Positions 1 to 6,218 of a stretch of 6,218 bases of DNA are shown in pieces. Positions within the stretch are counted from its first letter, which is position 1. Each line of letters begins with the position of its first letter. Origin of the DNA: Desulfuromonas sp. SDB (GTDB lineage: Bacteria; SDB-A); the NCBI GenBank assembly GCA_001412365.1, contig LKUE01000353.1, positions 1-6,218 of the forward strand, read 5' to 3'. The notes beneath the pieces were generated by a model, which saw nothing but the letters and a program-made list of their open reading frames with translations, did no database searches and had not been told where the DNA came from. Made by a program: the position numbers and the translations under genes.

Positions 1-563
1 AAAAAATGATATGACAACAAAGGAATATCTTCCTTTCTTTCCCTTAGAGGGACAACATTAATATCCAGAATATTTAATCTTTGAAATAGATCTTCGCGAA
101 ATAAATTTTCTTTCACTAATGCAGCTATATTTTTATGACTTGAGGAAATTATTCTGACATCAACCGGTAACTCCTGCTGCCCTCCAATTCTCCAGATTTT
201 TCTATTTTCCAATACTCGGAGTAACTTAGCTTGTAATTCAGGATGCAGATCAGCAATTTCATCTAAGAATATAATCCCTCCCTCCGCAATTTCAAATTTT
301 CCCTTTTGGGTTGCTACTGCCCCCGAAAATGAACCCTTTTCATGGCCAAATAACTCACTTTCAGCTAAATCTTTAGGTATAGCTGAGCAATTTATCGCAA
401 TAAATGGATTATTTCTTCTTTCACTTAATTTATGTATTGCCCTGGCAACTAATTCCTTGCCAGTTCCTGTTTCACCCTGTATAAGAACTGACATATCTAC
501 AGATGCAGCTCTTTCAATTTTTTTGTACAAATCCTTCATCTCCTGGCTAATACCAACAAATAA
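1..563 (-). other. Sigma-54-interacting AAA+ domain, incomplete (residues 1466-1652 of the regulator)
   Basis: The core of a bacterial enhancer-binding protein is plain. It begins FVGIS (1467-1471), has Walker A GETGTGKE (1495-1502), the sigma-54 contact loop as GSFSGA (1542-1547) in ESELFGHEKGSFSGA, Walker B IIFLDEIADL (1562-1571) with Asp1566 and Glu1567, an arginine-finger region LFREDLFQRLNI (1619-1630) and PLRERKEDIPLL (1637-1648). It closes about three-quarters of the way through the usual domain because the window ends; the AAA+ lid and the expected Fis-type helix-turn-helix lie outside. The contact loop is GAFTGA in most relatives; here Ala and Thr are both Ser, a conservative change that keeps the key Phe and both Gly. 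All ATPase residues look intact. Confidence 0.96.
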
Positions 564-3500
564 GTCAAGTTTTTCAATTTCTGCTGATATTTTCTGGTAC
601 TCCTGAACCTCATGCTCAATAAGCAATGGAGTTAAGATATTTGCAATTTCTTCAGCAATAAATAGTTGGTTATCATTAAAAGGTTCTTTTTTTATATCAG
701 TACGATCTAAATATAACGCACCGATTAAATTGTTCTGCTTGTCTATTAATGGTATGGATAGTACAGACAGAAATAATTTCCCTACTATACTGGGATTATT
801 TTTCAAGTCAGATTGTTCTAGAGCATTAGGTATCAAAATTGATTCCTGTTTTATAATAACTTTATTCAATATATTCTTGCTGAAATTTATTTGATCTTTG
901 GACAAATTAGCTGAATAAACCTTTATATAGAATTTATCAAAACCAAAAAGTGAAAGTTCATCATTATTTTTAATTAACTCAGTATCTTTTCTGATCAACA
1001 GCAAAGCATTATCAGCATCAGTATTAATGGTAAGATAATTCAGAAGTTCTCTGAAAGCAGTCTTGGAGTTTAAAAATCTTACCAAGCTAGAAATTAATTC
1101 CATTGTATTTGATTTTTTCATTTCAACCACCTGATATTTATTCTTTAAATAATCCGCTAATTCAAACAACTTAATTTTATAATCAATATTAACATCTTCT
1201 TTAAACAACTTGTCATATAGTCTATATGCAGATGAACAATATAATTTAGCTTTTTCTAGGTCAAATTGACGATCCATGGAATGATATTTCCAGAGAGAGT
1301 AATATAAATAAGCTTGCTCTTCAATTTTTAATGGTTGATCTATTCTTCTTTCTAGATCGGTTAATAATTTTTTGTTACCTGTTCGGATAAGCTCAATTCT
1401 TCTGGATAAAATCTTAGATATAACAATAAATTGATTTAAATGAAAATTTCCTTTTTCTAATATCTTCTCTGCTTTATCAATTTCATTAATGTCAACATAA
1501 AATTCAACTTTATTAAGGTTGATGAATTTAAAATCTTCCGGATTATTTATATGTTTTTCAATCTTCTCAATTCGCCGGTAACACTCTTCTACTACAGAAT
1601 ATTCTTTTTTATAGGAACATATCTGAGAGATATAAAATAAAATATCCAGTTGCTTAGAATAATAATTATATTTTTCACTTATAAGCTGGGCTTTTTTAAA
1701 ATAATCAAGCGCATTTTCAAAATCCTGATCATAAGCATATATTAAACCAATACTCATTAAAGCATTGGCTTGAGTAGTTAATATTTCAAGTTTTGAACTT
1801 AAATTGAAACTTTTGAAAAAATAATCTAACGCTATATTAAATTGACCTTGTTTTTCAGATAAGACTCCCATATTTAAATAAACTAAAGCAATACCTCGTT
1901 CATTGTTCAAGCCCTGTTGGATTTTCAGATTTTGCTGATAGCAATTCCAGGATTGGTCATAGTCCTTCATCTTCCGGTAAATAATTCCTAAATTACCTAA
2001 GTTGTTAGCAATGTCATCTTTACAATCCAACTCCTGGTAAATAGATAATTCCTTTTGGAAATATCCTATAGCTTCTACTAGTTTATCCTGGGCTAAATAT
2101 ATATTACCTAAACTTCCATACGCTCTGGCAACTCCAAATTTATGACCTATATTTTTTGAAATATTTAATTTTTGAGAATTATATTTCAATGCTTCTTTGA
2201 AGTTCGATTGAGCCCAATAAACTCCTCCGATATTTCCCAAAATAGTTGAATAATCCAATAAATTATTCAGCTTCTGATGAAATTCAAGTGACTTCTTATA
2301 ATGAACTAATGCTTTGGTGAAATTTCCCTGACCAAAATAGGTTGAACCAATGTTCAGATTAATCTTGGCCAACATCACTCGATCATTAATCTTACCAGCT
2401 AATTTTGCACTTTTATCGAAAAACAACAATGCATTTGAATAGTTTTTTCGGCAATAATTTAACTTAGCAAGATTAAAGTATGAACGAGAAATGCAATAGT
2501 CATCTTTAAGATCCTTACTGATATTTAGTTCATTATCAAAACAACTTTGAGCTTTTTTGAATTGAGTTCTTAAAACATACAAGGTCCCTAAATAATTATT
2601 AACAACTGTAATCTTCTTTTTTTGGTTTAATTTAGTTGCAATATTCATCGATTCAATAAAATTTCCCTCAGCTTTTTCCCATTTGCCGATATGTTGATAA
2701 ATTTTCCCCTGCTCAATTAAATAATTTAATTCCAGGAAATATTTCTTATTTCTTCTTAAAATATCAATAACCATTTGATAATAATAAATCGCTTTATCAT
2801 TGGAATATTTATTTGCTGAGTTAAAAGCTGCTTTAGCACAATATTTAAAAGATCTTAGGGTTTTTTCTGCTTTAAAATAATGCTCTGCTAAATTTTCAAT
2901 TATTTCATCTTTTTCAAATCTTAAACATTTATCATTGATCTTTTTTTCAATATTTTCTGCAACAATAGTATGGTATTCCAGCTTTTCTTTCCCTTTTAAC
3001 TGAGACATTAGGAATTTTCTAATTAAACTATGATGGAATTTGTAAAAATTAACTTGCCGACTGTAGTTAACTAAATTTACTGATCTAGCTTCATCAAGTA
3101 TTGATAATAAATGATCTTCCGAAAAATTACTTACTGCTCTAAGCAGTGTAAAATTGAAATTTTCACCAATAATAGCTGCTAATTTCAATATTTTCTGAAT
3201 ATCAGGATTCAATTGGCGAATTTTATTACCAATAATAGTGTTGAAGGAATAAGTTTGATAATCGGAAATTTCATTCTTATCTATGATCAGAACATCATCC
3301 TTAGATTTTATCTTTTTATTCATGTTCAAATGATTCAACAATTCCCTAATATATAGTGGATTACCACCAGTAATATTATTTATCAGCTGAATAATTTCAT
3401 CACTGGGTTCTGCTGAGAAGATTGATAGAAATAATTTCTTTATTTGTAAGAGACTAAAAGGTTTTAAATTGATTGTATCAATAGGTAGATCTCCATTGGT

Positions 3501-4958
3501 AAACTCAAATATCTTACCTTTGTTATCAAAATCAGGATTATAGGAAAAAAGTAAAAATAAATTGCTGTTGCATAAATTTCTCGTTGCATAGATAAACCAC
3601 TTTTGAAATGATTGATCTGCCCAATGGAAATCATCAAAAAATATTACTATTCCTTTAAAATCACTTTGCTTTCCAGTATTAATTTTATTAGAGAAATTTC
3701 TCAGTAGAGATGTAATGGTTTCAAATATTCTGATTTCCTGTTCCTGCTTTGTCAACTTAGGTAATTTTTCAAGATTTCTGAAAAATTCATGCTTCTCCAA
3801 TTCAGGGATAATTTCAATTAAATCTCTTGAAAATTCATCCAATAAATCAAACATTTCAAATGTTGAAAAATCTCGGAATCTTTCAATAATTTCCATAATC
3901 AATTTTTTTAAAGGTTCATAAACAGGACCATTTTCCCTGCATCTAATATCAATGACTGGGACCTGTTCAATTTGCAAAGAAATTTTAAACTGATTCCAAA
4001 GTTTTGTTTTCCCTATCCCCGCTTCTCCTCTAATACAAGCTAGTCGGAGAAAGTTTTTCTTCAAAAATATTTTCTTAATGGATGTCAATTCATATTCCCT
4101 ACCCACAAACACACTGGGTAAGGAATCACTTTTAATTTTTTTTATATCCACTATAAAATTTCTATTAAAGGGAATCTTACTTAAATATGCAACTAATTGT
4201 CCGGTTGATGTAAACCTCTGCTCAGGATTTTTTTCTAATAACCTTAAAACAAGCTCTTCAGCTTGCCAGGTTAAATCAGGTTTAATTTTTCTGGGAGAAA
4301 TTACCGGTTCTTTTAAATGCTTTAAAACTATTTCTCCATAATTTCTGCCATTGAAAGGGGTTTCTCCAGTTATCAATTCATAAATTATCACTCCAAGTGA
4401 ATATAAATCACTCTTTAAACCAATTGTGGATGCATCAACACATTGTTCAGGAGAAGCATATTTCACTGTTCCCAGAAATATTCCTTCATTGGTTATATCC
4501 AGTTGATCTTTTAATTTAATAAAATCAAAATCTGTAATTTTAACAATATTTTCTTTAGTTATAAGAATATTAGAAGGTTTTAAATCCCGGTGAATTATTT
4601 TTTTCTGATGGAGAGCATTTAAACCATGGCAAATCTGGAGAATAATTGGAATTAACTTATGAAAATCTTTTCCAGTTTTTATACATTCCAATGAACTAAG
4701 ATCAAAACCATCCACATACTCCATAATATAACCTAAAGAATCAGGCATATCTATATACTCAATCATCTTCACACAATTGACATGAGAAATTTTGGATATG
4801 GAAATAAAGCTTCTTTTAAATCTTCTTATCTCATTATCATCAAGAAGATTCCTCTTTATTTCTTTATAGGCAAAAATTTTACCATCATTTTCACTTCTTA
4901 TTTTATAAATTGAAGAAAATGGTCGTTCAGAAATTTGTTCTAGTTTTATGAAATTCAT
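1..4958 (-). CDS. Kinase-ATPase-TPR-GAF-sigma-54 activator, giant fused transcriptional regulator (C-terminus cut by window edge)
   Basis: An uninterrupted minus-strand frame of 1652 complete codons starts at ATG 4958-4956 and runs off the left edge. An in-frame TAA at 5006-5004, with no ATG, GTG or TTG between it and the ATG, fixes the start; GGTGA at 4967-4963 is a modest ribosome site. Domains in order: protein-kinase-like (about 1-262), AAA_16/COG3899-type ATPase (about 284-660), twelve 40-residue TPR-like units (about 703-1182), GAF-like (about 1285-1450) and sigma-54 AAA+ (from about 1466). The AAA+ domain would remodel RNA polymerase-sigma-54 to open promoters; the upstream domains would gate it. 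The front half resembles PknK-like and hybrid kinase/ATPase sensors, which often end in a histidine kinase or HTH; here the output is a sigma-54 activator. No transmembrane segment is evident, so it is probably cytoplasmic. A DNA-binding domain is expected beyond position 1. Likely target: the divergent gene at 5225. Domain identities are firm; the ligand and target are inferred. Confidence 0.93.
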   Translation of the reverse strand, partial: MNFIKLEQISERPFSSIYKIRSENDGKIFAYKEIKRNLLDDNEIRRFKRSFISISKISHVNCVKMIEYIDMPDSLGYIMEYVDGFDLSSLECIKTGKDFHKLIPIILQICHGLNALHQKKIIHRDLKPSNILITKENIVKITDFDFIKLKDQLDITNEGIFLGTVKYASPEQCVDASTIGLKSDLYSLGVIIYELITGETPFNGRNYGEIVLKHLKEPVISPRKIKPDLTWQAEELVLRLLEKNPEQRFTSTGQLVAYLSKIPFNRNFIVDIKKIKSDSLPSVFVGREYELTSIKKIFLKKNFLRLACIRGEAGIGKTKLWNQFKISLQIEQVPVIDIRCRENGPVYEPLKKLIMEIIERFRDFSTFEMFDLLDEFSRDLIEIIPELEKHEFFRNLEKLPKLTKQEQEIRIFETITSLLRNFSNKINTGKQSDFKGIVIFFDDFHWADQSFQKWFIYATRNLCNSNLFLLFSYNPDFDNKGKIFEFTNGDLPIDTINLKPFSLLQIKKLFLSIFSAEPSDEIIQLINNITGGNPLYIRELLNHLNMNKKIKSKDDVLIIDKNEISDYQTYSFNTIIGNKIRQLNPDIQKILKLAAIIGENFNFTLLRAVSNFSEDHLLSILDEARSVNLVNYSRQVNFYKFHHSLIRKFLMSQLKGKEKLEYHTIVAENIEKKINDKCLRFEKDEIIENLAEHYFKAEKTLRSFKYCAKAAFNSANKYSNDKAIYYYQMVIDILRRNKKYFLELNYLIEQGKIYQHIGKWEKAEGNFIESMNIATKLNQKKKITVVNNYLGTLYVLRTQFKKAQSCFDNELNISKDLKDDYCISRSYFNLAKLNYCRKNYSNALLFFDKSAKLAGKINDRVMLAKINLNIGSTYFGQGNFTKALVHYKKSLEFHQKLNNLLDYSTILGNIGGVYWAQSNFKEALKYNSQKLNISKNIGHKFGVARAYGSLGNIYLAQDKLVEAIGYFQKELSIYQELDCKDDIANNLGNLGIIYRKMKDYDQSWNCYQQNLKIQQGLNNERGIALVYLNMGVLSEKQGQFNIALDYFFKSFNLSSKLEILTTQANALMSIGLIYAYDQDFENALDYFKKAQLISEKYNYYSKQLDILFYISQICSYKKEYSVVEECYRRIEKIEKHINNPEDFKFINLNKVEFYVDINEIDKAEKILEKGNFHLNQFIVISKILSRRIELIRTGNKKLLTDLERRIDQPLKIEEQAYLYYSLWKYHSMDRQFDLEKAKLYCSSAYRLYDKLFKEDVNIDYKIKLFELADYLKNKYQVVEMKKSNTMELISSLVRFLNSKTAFRELLNYLTINTDADNALLLIRKDTELIKNNDELSLFGFDKFYIKVYSANLSKDQINFSKNILNKVIIKQESILIPNALEQSDLKNNPSIVGKLFLSVLSIPLIDKQNNLIGALYLDRTDIKKEPFNDNQLFIAEEIANILTPLLIEHEVQEYQKISAEIEKLDLFVGISQEMKDLYKKIERAASVDMSVLIQGETGTGKELVARAIHKLSERRNNPFIAINCSAIPKDLAESELFGHEKGSFSGAVATQKGKFEIAEGGIIFLDEIADLHPELQAKLLRVLENRKIWRIGGQQELPVDVRIISSSHKNIAALVKENLFREDLFQRLNILDINVVPLRERKEDIPLLSYHF
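609..1106 (-). other. GAF-like sensor domain (residues about 1285-1450 of the regulator)
   Basis: The segment between the TPR array and the AAA+ domain has the layout of a GAF domain. An amphipathic entry helix (near 1285-1310) is followed by alternating strands, then the typical ending SVLSIPLIDKQNNLIGALYLD (1398-1418), a short loop, and a closing helix FNDNQLFIAEEIANILTPLL (1427-1446). The phrase 'IPL...LIGALYLD' followed by a helix is the standard signature of GAF domains placed directly before sigma-54 AAA+ modules, as in NifA, NorR and FhlA-type activators. In those proteins the GAF domain represses or licenses the ATPase according to a bound ligand. I see no CxxC or obvious metal-binding cluster, so the ligand cannot be named. 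Boundaries are approximate. Confidence 0.75.
1413..2852 (-). repeat. Twelve TPR-like repeats in exact 40-residue (120-base) register
   Basis: Residues about 703-1182 of the regulator form tetratricopeptide-like units of the 40-residue type. The small/aromatic motif (GxxY-like) falls at 751, 791, 831, 871, 911, 951, 991, 1031, 1071 and 1111, with matching positions at 711 and 1151. The helix-B Ala follows at +12: Ala723, 763, 803, 843, 883, 923, 963, 1043, 1083 and 1163, with Ser1003 and Val1123 as exceptions. Not one residue is inserted or lost over twelve units. At the protein level the units are well diverged, so this is not a recent DNA tandem duplication. TPR arrays bind partner proteins or peptides and commonly act as the inducer-sensing surface of ATPase switches. 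More irregular helices follow to about residue 1275. Confidence 0.9.
2979..4109 (-). other. AAA_16/COG3899-type ATPase domain (residues about 284-660 of the regulator)
   Basis: This module opens with the typical FVGREYEL lead-in (284-291). The Walker A is GEAGIGKT at 311-318 with Lys317, and the Walker B stretch is IVIFFDDFHWAD ending near residue 448, very close to the family's DDLHWAD. The later GGNPLYIRELL (531-541) is also characteristic of these STAND-like 'predicted ATPases', which are found fused behind Ser/Thr kinases and in MalT/PknK-like regulators. Such domains usually act as nucleotide-dependent switches that pass a signal from a C-terminal repeat sensor to an output. All nucleotide-binding residues I can identify look intact, unlike the kinase domain before it. 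Residues about 570-660 probably form the helical/winged-helix tail of the module; that boundary is approximate. Confidence 0.88.
4173..4958 (-). other. Protein-kinase-like domain with altered active site (residues 1-262 of the regulator)
   Basis: The fold is recognisable from the order of motifs: Lys32 in FAYKEIK (the VAIK position), His-Arg-Asp 123-125 followed by Lys127 and Asn130, Asp143 at the metal-binding position, GTVKYASPE at 163-171, SDLYSLG at 183-189, and the late Arg248 in NPEQRF. Several normally conserved positions differ. The glycine loop at residues 9-18 has no glycines: Ser10, Arg12 and Ser15 sit where the three Gly belong. The alpha-C Glu position is Ser50, judged from its distance to the HxN motif at 59-61. 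DFG reads Asp-Phe-Asp (143-145). The domain may be a weak kinase or a pseudokinase that binds rather than phosphorylates. Fold assignment is strong; the activity state is inferred. Confidence 0.88.
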
Positions 4959-4962
4959 AAGT

Positions 4963-4967
4963 TCACC
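4963..4967 (-). promoter_or_regulatory. Weak ribosome binding site of the regulator gene
   Basis: On the minus strand GGTGA lies four bases before the ATG at 4958. It matches the right-hand part of the AAGGAGGTGA consensus. It supports the chosen start, although it is weaker than the AAGGAG of the divergent gene. Confidence 0.5.
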
Positions 4968-4973
4968 AAAATT

Positions 4974-5002
4974 ATTATTAATCTCTTGATGTAAATTGTC
5001 AA
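4974..5002 (-). promoter_or_regulatory. Sigma-70-type promoter of the regulator gene
   Basis: Reading the minus strand, a perfect -35 box TTGACA (5002-4997) is followed by a 17-base spacer and a one-mismatch -10 box AATAAT (4979-4974). The predicted start of transcription is near 4967, leaving a leader of only about nine bases that is essentially the GGTGA ribosome site. This would make the regulator expressed independently of sigma-54. The -35 box lies inside a 15-base palindrome. In AT-rich DNA -10-like sequences are common, so the strength of the call rests on the perfect -35 box and ideal spacing. Confidence 0.6.
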
Positions 5003-5006
5003 TTTA
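4992..5006. promoter_or_regulatory. Perfect 15-base palindrome over the -35 box, candidate operator
   Basis: The sequence TAAATTG-T-CAATTTA is a perfect inverted repeat with 7-base arms around one central base. It contains the whole TTGACA -35 box predicted for the regulator gene, so a protein bound here would block that promoter. The binder is unknown; autorepression by the regulator or by a separate repressor are both possible. It is also about 200 bases upstream of the divergent sigma-54 start site. Confidence 0.45.
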
Positions 5007-5022
5007 GTTTAACTTTCAAGCA

Positions 5023-5046
5023 AAAACGAGTGTTCTAAAACGAGCA
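5023..5046. promoter_or_regulatory. Direct repeats and imperfect dyad, candidate upstream activator site
   Basis: Two copies of AAAACGAG (5023-5030 and 5037-5044) lie 14 bases apart. They overlap an imperfect dyad, TGTTC (5031-5035), six bases, GAGCA (5042-5046). A third, shorter AAACGA occurs at 5152-5157. These elements are among the few G/C-bearing repeats in an otherwise AT-only stretch. They sit about 160-180 bases before the predicted sigma-54 start site, a usual distance for enhancer sites of sigma-54 activators. Which element, if any, is the binding site cannot be decided from one copy of the locus. Confidence 0.3.
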
Positions 5047-5052
5047 TTTTTA

Positions 5053-5068
5053 ATAATTTTAAAATTAT
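5053..5068. repeat. 16-base AT-only palindrome
   Basis: ATAATTTTAAAATTAT is a perfect inverted repeat without spacer, centred between 5060 and 5061. It is composed only of A and T in an AT-rich region, so chance is a reasonable explanation. It could also contribute DNA flexibility or curvature between the candidate activator site and the sigma-54 promoter. Confidence 0.35.
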
Positions 5069-5176
5069 GACAACTCATTTGTAACATTAATGAACAGAAA
5101 ATTTATCGAACAAATTATATATTTATTTTAAATCACTTATTATGGTTATTTAAACGATCATTAAATTATCATTATT

Positions 5177-5192
5177 TGGCATAAAAAATGCT
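5177..5192 (+). promoter_or_regulatory. Sigma-54 (-24/-12) promoter of the Asp-box protein gene
   Basis: TGGCATAAAAAATGCT matches the sigma-54 consensus TGGCAC-N5-TTGCW at the core positions. The GG at 5178-5179 and GC at 5190-5191 have exactly the required separation, with TGGCA intact on the left and TGCT on the right. Departures are the C and G after TGGCA and the first T of TTGC. The predicted transcription start is near 5203, giving a 22-base leader that contains the AAGGAG ribosome site. No convincing sigma-70 promoter is visible for this gene. The sigma-54 activator encoded divergently next door strengthens the call. A GCAT-N5-ATGC dyad coincides with the element, so chance or another binding role is the alternative. 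Confidence 0.68.
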
Positions 5193-5213
5193 AAATATTA
5201 TAAAAATTTAAAC

Positions 5214-5219
5214 AAGGAG
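5214..5219 (+). promoter_or_regulatory. Ribosome binding site of the Asp-box protein gene
   Basis: AAGGAG lies five bases before the ATG at 5225, a strong and well-spaced Shine-Dalgarno sequence. It decides the start codon together with the signal peptide that immediately follows. Confidence 0.85.
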
Positions 5220-5224
5220 TTCCT

Positions 5225-6218
5225 ATGAAAGAAGTATTAGTTCTCGTTTTTATGATTATCTCATTAAACCTTTATGCAAGTCCTGAATGGGGTGATGATG
5301 TATTGATTAATGATGGTCCATCCAAAGGAATGGCAATTGATTATGACAATACCGGTACCCTTTATGCCTGGGTACATGTTTACAACAGCAGCGGAATGGA
5401 TACTATGAAACTATATTCATCCCCCGATAGCGGCAGAAATTGGTATCTTAGAAAAAACAATCTTTTTGATGTAAGAGCCTTTGATATTGACGTAGTTAAC
5501 GGGAATTATTCATCATATCTCTTTTGTTATGTTGTGGACAACAACATCCTCAGGGTGATAAGGTACAATCTTCCCAATCTAACCTATGAAACTAACTCCA
5601 TGATTGATTACAGCAATAACGACAAACATTGGGTGGTGGCAAGGAATATTTCCAATGTTACCGGATATGTAATAAGAGTTGCCTATTCAGTAGATGTCCA
5701 GGGCAATTCAGATTCCACCGCAGTCTGGTATAGAGAATCAACCGATTCCGGTATAACCTGGGGCGATTCAGTTATAATTGCTTCCAACGATGATGGAGAC
5801 TGGGATGAAATTTTCGACTTTGCTTACGGGATGCACCTGGGAATGGGGTATTTTTATTTCTGCGGTTCAAGGAAAAGTACTTTTGACAATTATGCTCTTT
5901 GCTGGAGCAGTAACTTAAACTTTCCCCACCCCCTTATAATCTGGAATATTCAAGGCATTGATTACCGATATCCAAATATAGCGGTTTCCCGATCGATATC
6001 CGATTCGGCAAAAATCTGCATTGTTTACGGGCGCAAGGATATTACCGGGGATTGGTGCATCCATGCAGTAACCAGCAAGAACGGAGGAAATTCATTTACT
6101 CAGCAAACCATATTTGACAGTACTAATTTTGATGACAACTATCCAGTAGTGGATATCACTTCTAATGCATTTTACAGCGACACTTGTTTCATCTTAGCGT
6201 TCCGGACTTCATTCAGTT
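5225..6218 (+). CDS. Secreted Asp-box (BNR/sialidase-like) repeat protein, N-terminal 331 residues
   Basis: The frame opens at ATG 5225 behind AAGGAG and continues without a stop to the window end, so the C-terminus is missing. Residues 1-18 look like a signal peptide: Lys2, a hydrophobic core VLVLVFMIISLNL, and probable cleavage after Ala18, so the product is exported. Two good Asp-box motifs (S-x-D-x-G-x-x-W) are seen: SPDSGRNW at 66-73 and STDSGITW at 172-179. SKNGGNSF at 284-291 is a degenerate third. Each is preceded by a strand-like segment of the type seen in BNR/sialidase beta-propellers, and a fourth such segment starts near 307 (PVVDI). No set of sialidase catalytic arginines can be assigned, so enzymatic activity should not be assumed; adhesive or structural surface proteins share this fold. 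In related lineages such proteins often end in a type IX-like sorting domain, which would lie beyond the window. The gene is probably driven by the sigma-54 promoter at 5177. Its G+C is clearly higher than that of the divergent regulator. Confidence 0.85.
   Translation, partial: MKEVLVLVFMIISLNLYASPEWGDDVLINDGPSKGMAIDYDNTGTLYAWVHVYNSSGMDTMKLYSSPDSGRNWYLRKNNLFDVRAFDIDVVNGNYSSYLFCYVVDNNILRVIRYNLPNLTYETNSMIDYSNNDKHWVVARNISNVTGYVIRVAYSVDVQGNSDSTAVWYRESTDSGITWGDSVIIASNDDGDWDEIFDFAYGMHLGMGYFYFCGSRKSTFDNYALCWSSNLNFPHPLIIWNIQGIDYRYPNIAVSRSISDSAKICIVYGRKDITGDWCIHAVTSKNGGNSFTQQTIFDSTNFDDNYPVVDITSNAFYSDTCFILAFRTSFS

Follow-up and report, generated by a model that had tools for sequence, protein, structure and literature searches.

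A giant sigma-54 activator divergent from a -24/-12 element and an exported Asp-box protein gene, in a genome with at least three giant-activator cassettes

Does the giant sigma-54 activator encoded at this locus switch on the exported protein whose gene diverges from it? The window (the whole stretch of DNA analysed) is one entire contig of 6218 bases (G000:C353) from an uncultured bacterium (3.14 Mb, 433 contigs, 98.7% complete), whose phylum is represented in the collection by four genomes of one family. One of its sister genomes, G002, has most 20-mers around rpoN in common with the MAG 'candidate division WOR-3 bacterium' isolate Zod_Metabat.185. An earlier note had described the window as a self-contained divergent circuit, in which an activator with kinase, ATPase, TPR and GAF inputs controls a sialidase-like or adhesive secreted protein; its open reading frames, strands and coordinates match ours. 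Both genes exceed the contig and are cut by its ends (3-4958 on the minus strand, 5225-6217 on the plus strand), which puts the lid and DNA-binding domain of the activator, as well as the secreted protein's C-terminus, out of view. The features of the window are as follows.

3 to 4958, minus strand: giant sigma-54 activator (bEBP), 1652 residues visible, lid and HTH cut off (open reading frame, Pfam)
60 to 557, minus strand: sigma-54 interacting AAA+ domain, residues 1468-1633 (Pfam Sigma54_activat PF00158, E=6.1e-68)
318 to 335, minus strand: GSFSGA, variant of the GAFTGA sigma-54 contact loop (alignment)
633 to 1088, minus strand: GAF-like region, limits approximate (inferred from alignment with paralogues)
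1659 to 2801, minus strand: TPR array, limits approximate (Pfam TPR_12, 7 stretches)
3570 to 4109, minus strand: STAND-like AAA_16 ATPase, residues 284-463 (Pfam PF13191, E=2.1e-18)
4203 to 4928, minus strand: Hanks-type kinase domain, residues 11-252 (Pfam Pkinase PF00069, E=2.9e-44; alignment)
4974 to 5002, minus strand: sigma-70-like promoter candidate for the activator gene, TTGACA-17-AATAAT, 11/12 (weak pattern match)
5023 to 5050, no strand assigned: tandem AAAACGAG repeat, weak candidate upstream activator site (repeat search)
5177 to 5192, plus strand: -24/-12 element TGGCATAAAAAATGCT, predicted transcript start 5203 (strict match, exact GG-N10-GC spacing)
5214 to 5219, plus strand: ribosome binding site AAGGAG (sequence)
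5225 to 6217, plus strand: exported Asp-box protein truncated at its C-terminus, with 331 residues in view and a signal peptide at about residues 1-19 (open reading frame, sister homologues)
5420 to 5443, plus strand: Asp-box 1, SPDSGRNW, residue 66 (motif)
5738 to 5761, plus strand: Asp-box 2, STDSGITW, residue 172 (motif)
6074 to 6097, plus strand: Asp-box 3, SKNGGNSF (variant), residue 284 (motif)

The minus-strand gene was correctly read as a sigma-54 AAA+ activator: the Sigma54_activat domain keeps its Walker motifs (GETGTGKE and FLDE), and the genome encodes the cognate sigma factor (rpoN, PF04552, E=4.2e-47), which is also found in three sister genomes. As to the inputs said to share this polypeptide, Pfam recovers the kinase, the AAA_16 ATPase and the TPRs, whereas GAF is matched directly only in two paralogues (GAF/GAF_2 in C114 and GAF_2 in C208) and is placed in the window protein by alignment. 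The aligned kinase domain retains the catalytic lysine and the HRD motif (HRDLKPSN); its catalytic activity is uncertain because DFD replaces DFG and the glycine loop is degenerate, as it is in the C208 paralogue. The sigma-70-like candidate upstream of the activator gene is weak, since the count of such sites in the region is about that of shuffles. Many large AAA_16-TPR proteins of about 1100-1400 aa (in C387, C262, C93, C156, C324 and other contigs of the genome, and in sister genomes too) match the giant in parts other than the sigma-54 domain.

The proposed promoter of the plus-strand gene also held up. Element TGGCATAAAAAATGCT agrees with TGGCAY-N5-WTGC at GG-N10-GC spacing and ends 32 bases upstream of the ATG at 5225, with the predicted transcript start at 5203 lying 22 nt before that codon; promoter activity is a prediction. 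The strict form matters because one-mismatch matches are common by chance in sequence of the window's size, and when the intergenic region was shuffled 20,000 times by mononucleotide, a strict element turned up in a single shuffle. A search of 4800-5400 for plus-strand sigma-70-like sites found none, in line with the remark that no other good promoter serves this gene.

The strict element is a real signal in this genome, as seen from pattern searches and fetched stretches of the genome, with matches sorted by hand. Genome-wide, the loose sigma-54 pattern has 65 matches and its reversed version 24. Of the 21 strict TGGCAY forms, 14 fall between genes, as compared to 2 of the 44 other forms (Fisher P=1.7e-7), and all 14 strict intergenic elements have a same-strand start codon about 30-101 bp downstream. 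By a crude hydropathy rule, 9 of the 14 directly downstream genes encode a signal- or pilin-like hydrophobic N-terminus, against 43 of 133 in the background (P=0.036); the remaining genes encode response regulators and small proteins. Type IV pilin-like genes directly follow strict elements at L126 1350-1365 (C257) and L128 3269-3284 (C265), and a NifX-like small gene follows one at L080 5398-5833 (C103), about 1 kb downstream of an ordinary activator.

What the promoter would express is an exported protein, as proposed, with a signal-like N-terminus and three regularly spaced Asp-boxes (BNR pattern, repeated S/T-x-D-x-G-x-T/S-W/F), a number reached in 0 of 2000 shuffles. Pfam BNR matches its homologues only, just below the cut-off. 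The sialidase-like description fared less well: sialidase identity was rejected on zero family matches in the visible part, which holds YRYP only, the canonical FRIP being absent. Among the 116 genomes, homologues of the Asp-box protein were found in the sister genus only. The complete ones (553-554 aa) have three Asp-boxes at the same spacing and C-terminal type IX-like tails, which score 20.1 bits in Pfam (cut-off 27) and 22.4 bits in NCBIfam (cut-off 23). In the window's own genome, type IX tail matches number 113 at E<=0.01, and a SprA-like channel is encoded. Since these sister homologues carry type IX-like tails, the Asp-box protein is likelier a type IX surface propeller than a sialidase, the propeller fold itself being putative. 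A structure prediction of the protein without alignment was discarded (mean pLDDT 37).

The activator-promoter-cargo arrangement is not unique to this locus; the genome has at least three giant-activator cassettes, of which the window's is the divergent one. Two full-length paralogues of the window giant, C114 (1716 aa) and C208 (1717 aa), both have a GAF domain preceding the AAA+ motor and, after it, the AAA+ lid followed by a Fis-type HTH_8 at the C-terminus. The C114 giant is followed by two sigma-54 elements, one before a 110-aa PqqD-like gene and the other before a 1201-aa C25 (gingipain-like) peptidase that carries a type IX tail. Behind the C208 giant, one sigma-54 element precedes a 525-aa S74-type fibre, and then comes a protein with a type IX tail. 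Whereas the window element is divergent from its giant, the C114 and C208 elements lie downstream and are co-oriented. We note that the PqqD-like protein (L074 4710-5042) has its sigma-54 element upstream and is encoded between the giant activator and gingipain-like peptidase genes.

Giants that fuse kinase, TPR, GAF and sigma-54 AAA+ domains were also found outside the phylum, in three genomes (G006, G055 and G036). In G006, the 207-bp gap after the giant holds a 20-bp palindrome, direct repeats and a -24/-12 element, TGGCAAGAAAAATGCG; the gene downstream of this element encodes a type IX-tailed protein of 1005 aa. No recognisable cargo gene was found adjoining the G055 and G036 giants. An element and an exported protein thus adjoin 4 of the 6 giants examined. 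Because the arrangement recurs twice in the genome and once outside the phylum, it has the look of a repeated cassette that provides on-board control of secreted proteins. A genome-contig search with the window giant as query found no relative.

The best explanation, to which we assign a probability of roughly 0.65, is that the window giant drives the -24/-12 promoter of the Asp-box gene. The steps below follow the general bEBP mechanism. The giant would be a cytoplasmic one-component sigma-54 activator, probably expressed from its own sigma-70-type promoter, with an AAA+ motor that would stay idle until the N-terminal sensor stack (kinase, STAND ATPase, TPR and GAF) registers a signal. Once activated, it would assemble into a ring whose GSFSGA loop contacts sigma-54, and ATP hydrolysis would open the RNA polymerase waiting at 5177-5192. 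Transcription from about 5203 would then yield a Sec-exported Asp-box beta-propeller, probably brought to the surface by the type IX system. Against this explanation stand the DNA-binding domain of the giant and the C-terminus of the cargo, neither of them visible, the DFD motif and degenerate glycine loop of the kinase domain, nine alternative activators in the genome, and the distant giants of G055 and G036, which have no recognisable cargo gene beside them.

These other activators bear on the strongest alternative, in which TGGCATAAAAAATGCT is a true sigma-54 promoter driven by another activator and the giant acts elsewhere, e.g. downstream of its own stop codon. The paralogues favour it, as their elements are downstream and none is divergent, and so does the count of ten sigma-54 activator genes in the genome (window giant included), the majority of the 14 strict intergenic elements being distant from any of them. 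The adjacency of activators and elements argues the other way: 6 of the 14 elements have one of the ten activator genes within 2 kb, although the flanks so counted make up 1.1% of the genome, far above chance (P=4.7e-9, some gene limits in this count being approximate), and activator genes usually adjoin their targets, local control being the common rule (PMC6615313). We consider control by another activator unlikely, and the least unlikely of the alternatives.

Two other activator genes at contig edges were seen. An orphan activator C-terminus at the edge of C95 (L236 4436-4789), followed by a strict sigma-54 element (4318-4333) and a response-regulator gene, is the sole unmatched activator tail and possibly the missing end of the window giant; it scores 97 and 96 with the giants' tails versus 150 and 142 with the tails of two other activators, a better fit to the latter. 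The end of L076 (C339) and the start of L235 (C344) share a 20-bp overlap within a single activator gene, next to which lies a type IV pilus gene cluster, and these contigs are probably adjacent in the genome.

The search for enhancers also lends something to control by another activator, as enhancer repeats were not found in the window. Self-repeats in its intergenic region do not exceed those of shuffles (48 of 60 shuffles equal them), which leaves an enhancer site there without statistical support, and no enhancer motif is shared among the upstream regions of the giants. For the C208 repeat TCGWAACAATTTGT, 1 of 60 shuffles did as well in one run and 8 of 100 in another, which makes it no more than suggestive. 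Candidate enhancer sites were seen in G006 (L172 5090-5255), where the 20-bp palindrome and the repeated ATATAACATAATAT lie between the giant and the type IX cargo gene; the best 16-mer pair of this gap was matched by 4 of 100 shuffles, and its count of near-matching pairs by 0 of 100.

The second alternative takes TGGCATAAAAAATGCT as a chance match and has the Asp-box gene transcribed from a sigma-70-type or read-through promoter. The sister-genus Asp-box homologues, which have no -24/-12 element nearby, lend it some weight, together with the one-mismatch matches that are not rare in the window. In the comparison of related genomes suggested in the earlier note, these homologues had no giant nearby either, so the sister genus does not conserve the giant/promoter pairing; the three sister genomes yielded no fused giant, and no relative retaining the activator/Asp-box gene pair was found. 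It is set back by the lack of a plus-strand sigma-70-like site in 4800-5400, by the concentration of strict elements upstream of starts in the genome, and by the exactness of TGGCATAAAAAATGCT in both match and spacing, and we regard it as improbable. Control of the Asp-box gene by the window giant remains our preferred reading. Since no enhancer beats shuffles and the sister genus lacks the pairing, the wiring from giant to promoter rests on adjacency and on the pattern of the paralogues. The word self-contained goes too far, given nine other activators in the genome, an undemonstrated enhancer site, and the sister homologues without giant or element.

The last alternative concerns the contact loop, which is G(A/S)FSGA in all three giants of the genome (GAFSGA and GSFSGA in the paralogues) and the double variant GSFSGA in the window activator; we counted it as a GAFTGA-type loop in assigning the protein to the bEBPs. 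Surveys treat the single variants GAFSGA and GSFTGA as functional loops (PMC4641369, PMC6615313). That the change from threonine to serine at this conserved position, present in all three giants, has made the giant regulate a different form of RNA polymerase or serve as a signalling scaffold is very improbable, as GAFSGA is among these working variants, the Walker motifs are kept, and sigma-54 elements adjoin all three giants.

A broader reading, held tentatively, is that the kinase-STAND-TPR-GAF-sigma-54 giants of more than one phylum may belong to one class of dedicated private activators, and that each of them may be paired with a type IX surface cargo of its own. If true, one surface protein would be displayed according to an internal state, with a single polypeptide as the link. 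Activator, promoter and cargo within a few kilobases, recurring in the genome and outside the phylum, make a testable model, and the order of giant activator, -24/-12 element and tail-bearing protein offers a search rule for poorly known bacteria. In the literature searched, we found no paper tying sigma-54 to type IX cargo via such activators.

Among known systems, the window giant resembles bEBPs of the NtrC/NifA/NorR type in having GAF beside a sigma-54 AAA+ motor near a -24/-12 promoter, and differs from them in about 1290 extra N-terminal residues (kinase, STAND-like ATPase and TPRs) and in GSFSGA for GAFTGA; in NCBIfam it scores best with NifA, NtrC and NorR, at values far under their cut-offs. 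PknK-like regulators have a kinase-ATPase-TPR architecture. With them and with TOMM kinase/cyclase fusions (an NCBIfam match below cut-off) the giant has in common a Hanks-type kinase domain and, after it, an AAA_16-type ATPase and TPRs, whereas at its output end stands a sigma-54 AAA+ motor, to which the paralogues add a Fis-type HTH. The Asp-box protein is comparable to type IX cargo (Por_Secre_tail/TIGR04183) in that its sister homologues end in such tails, with scores just under the curated cut-offs, whereas its own tail lies past the contig edge.

Sigma-54 has been proposed to control the exterior of bacteria (Francke et al. 2011, PMC3162934), in a paper whose main text does not contain the words 'TPR' and 'protein kinase'. 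The targets in this genome are in keeping with that proposal, as they include exported proteins, pilins and surface fibres; they differ from it in that type IX cargo is among them and in that the activator is a kinase-STAND fusion.
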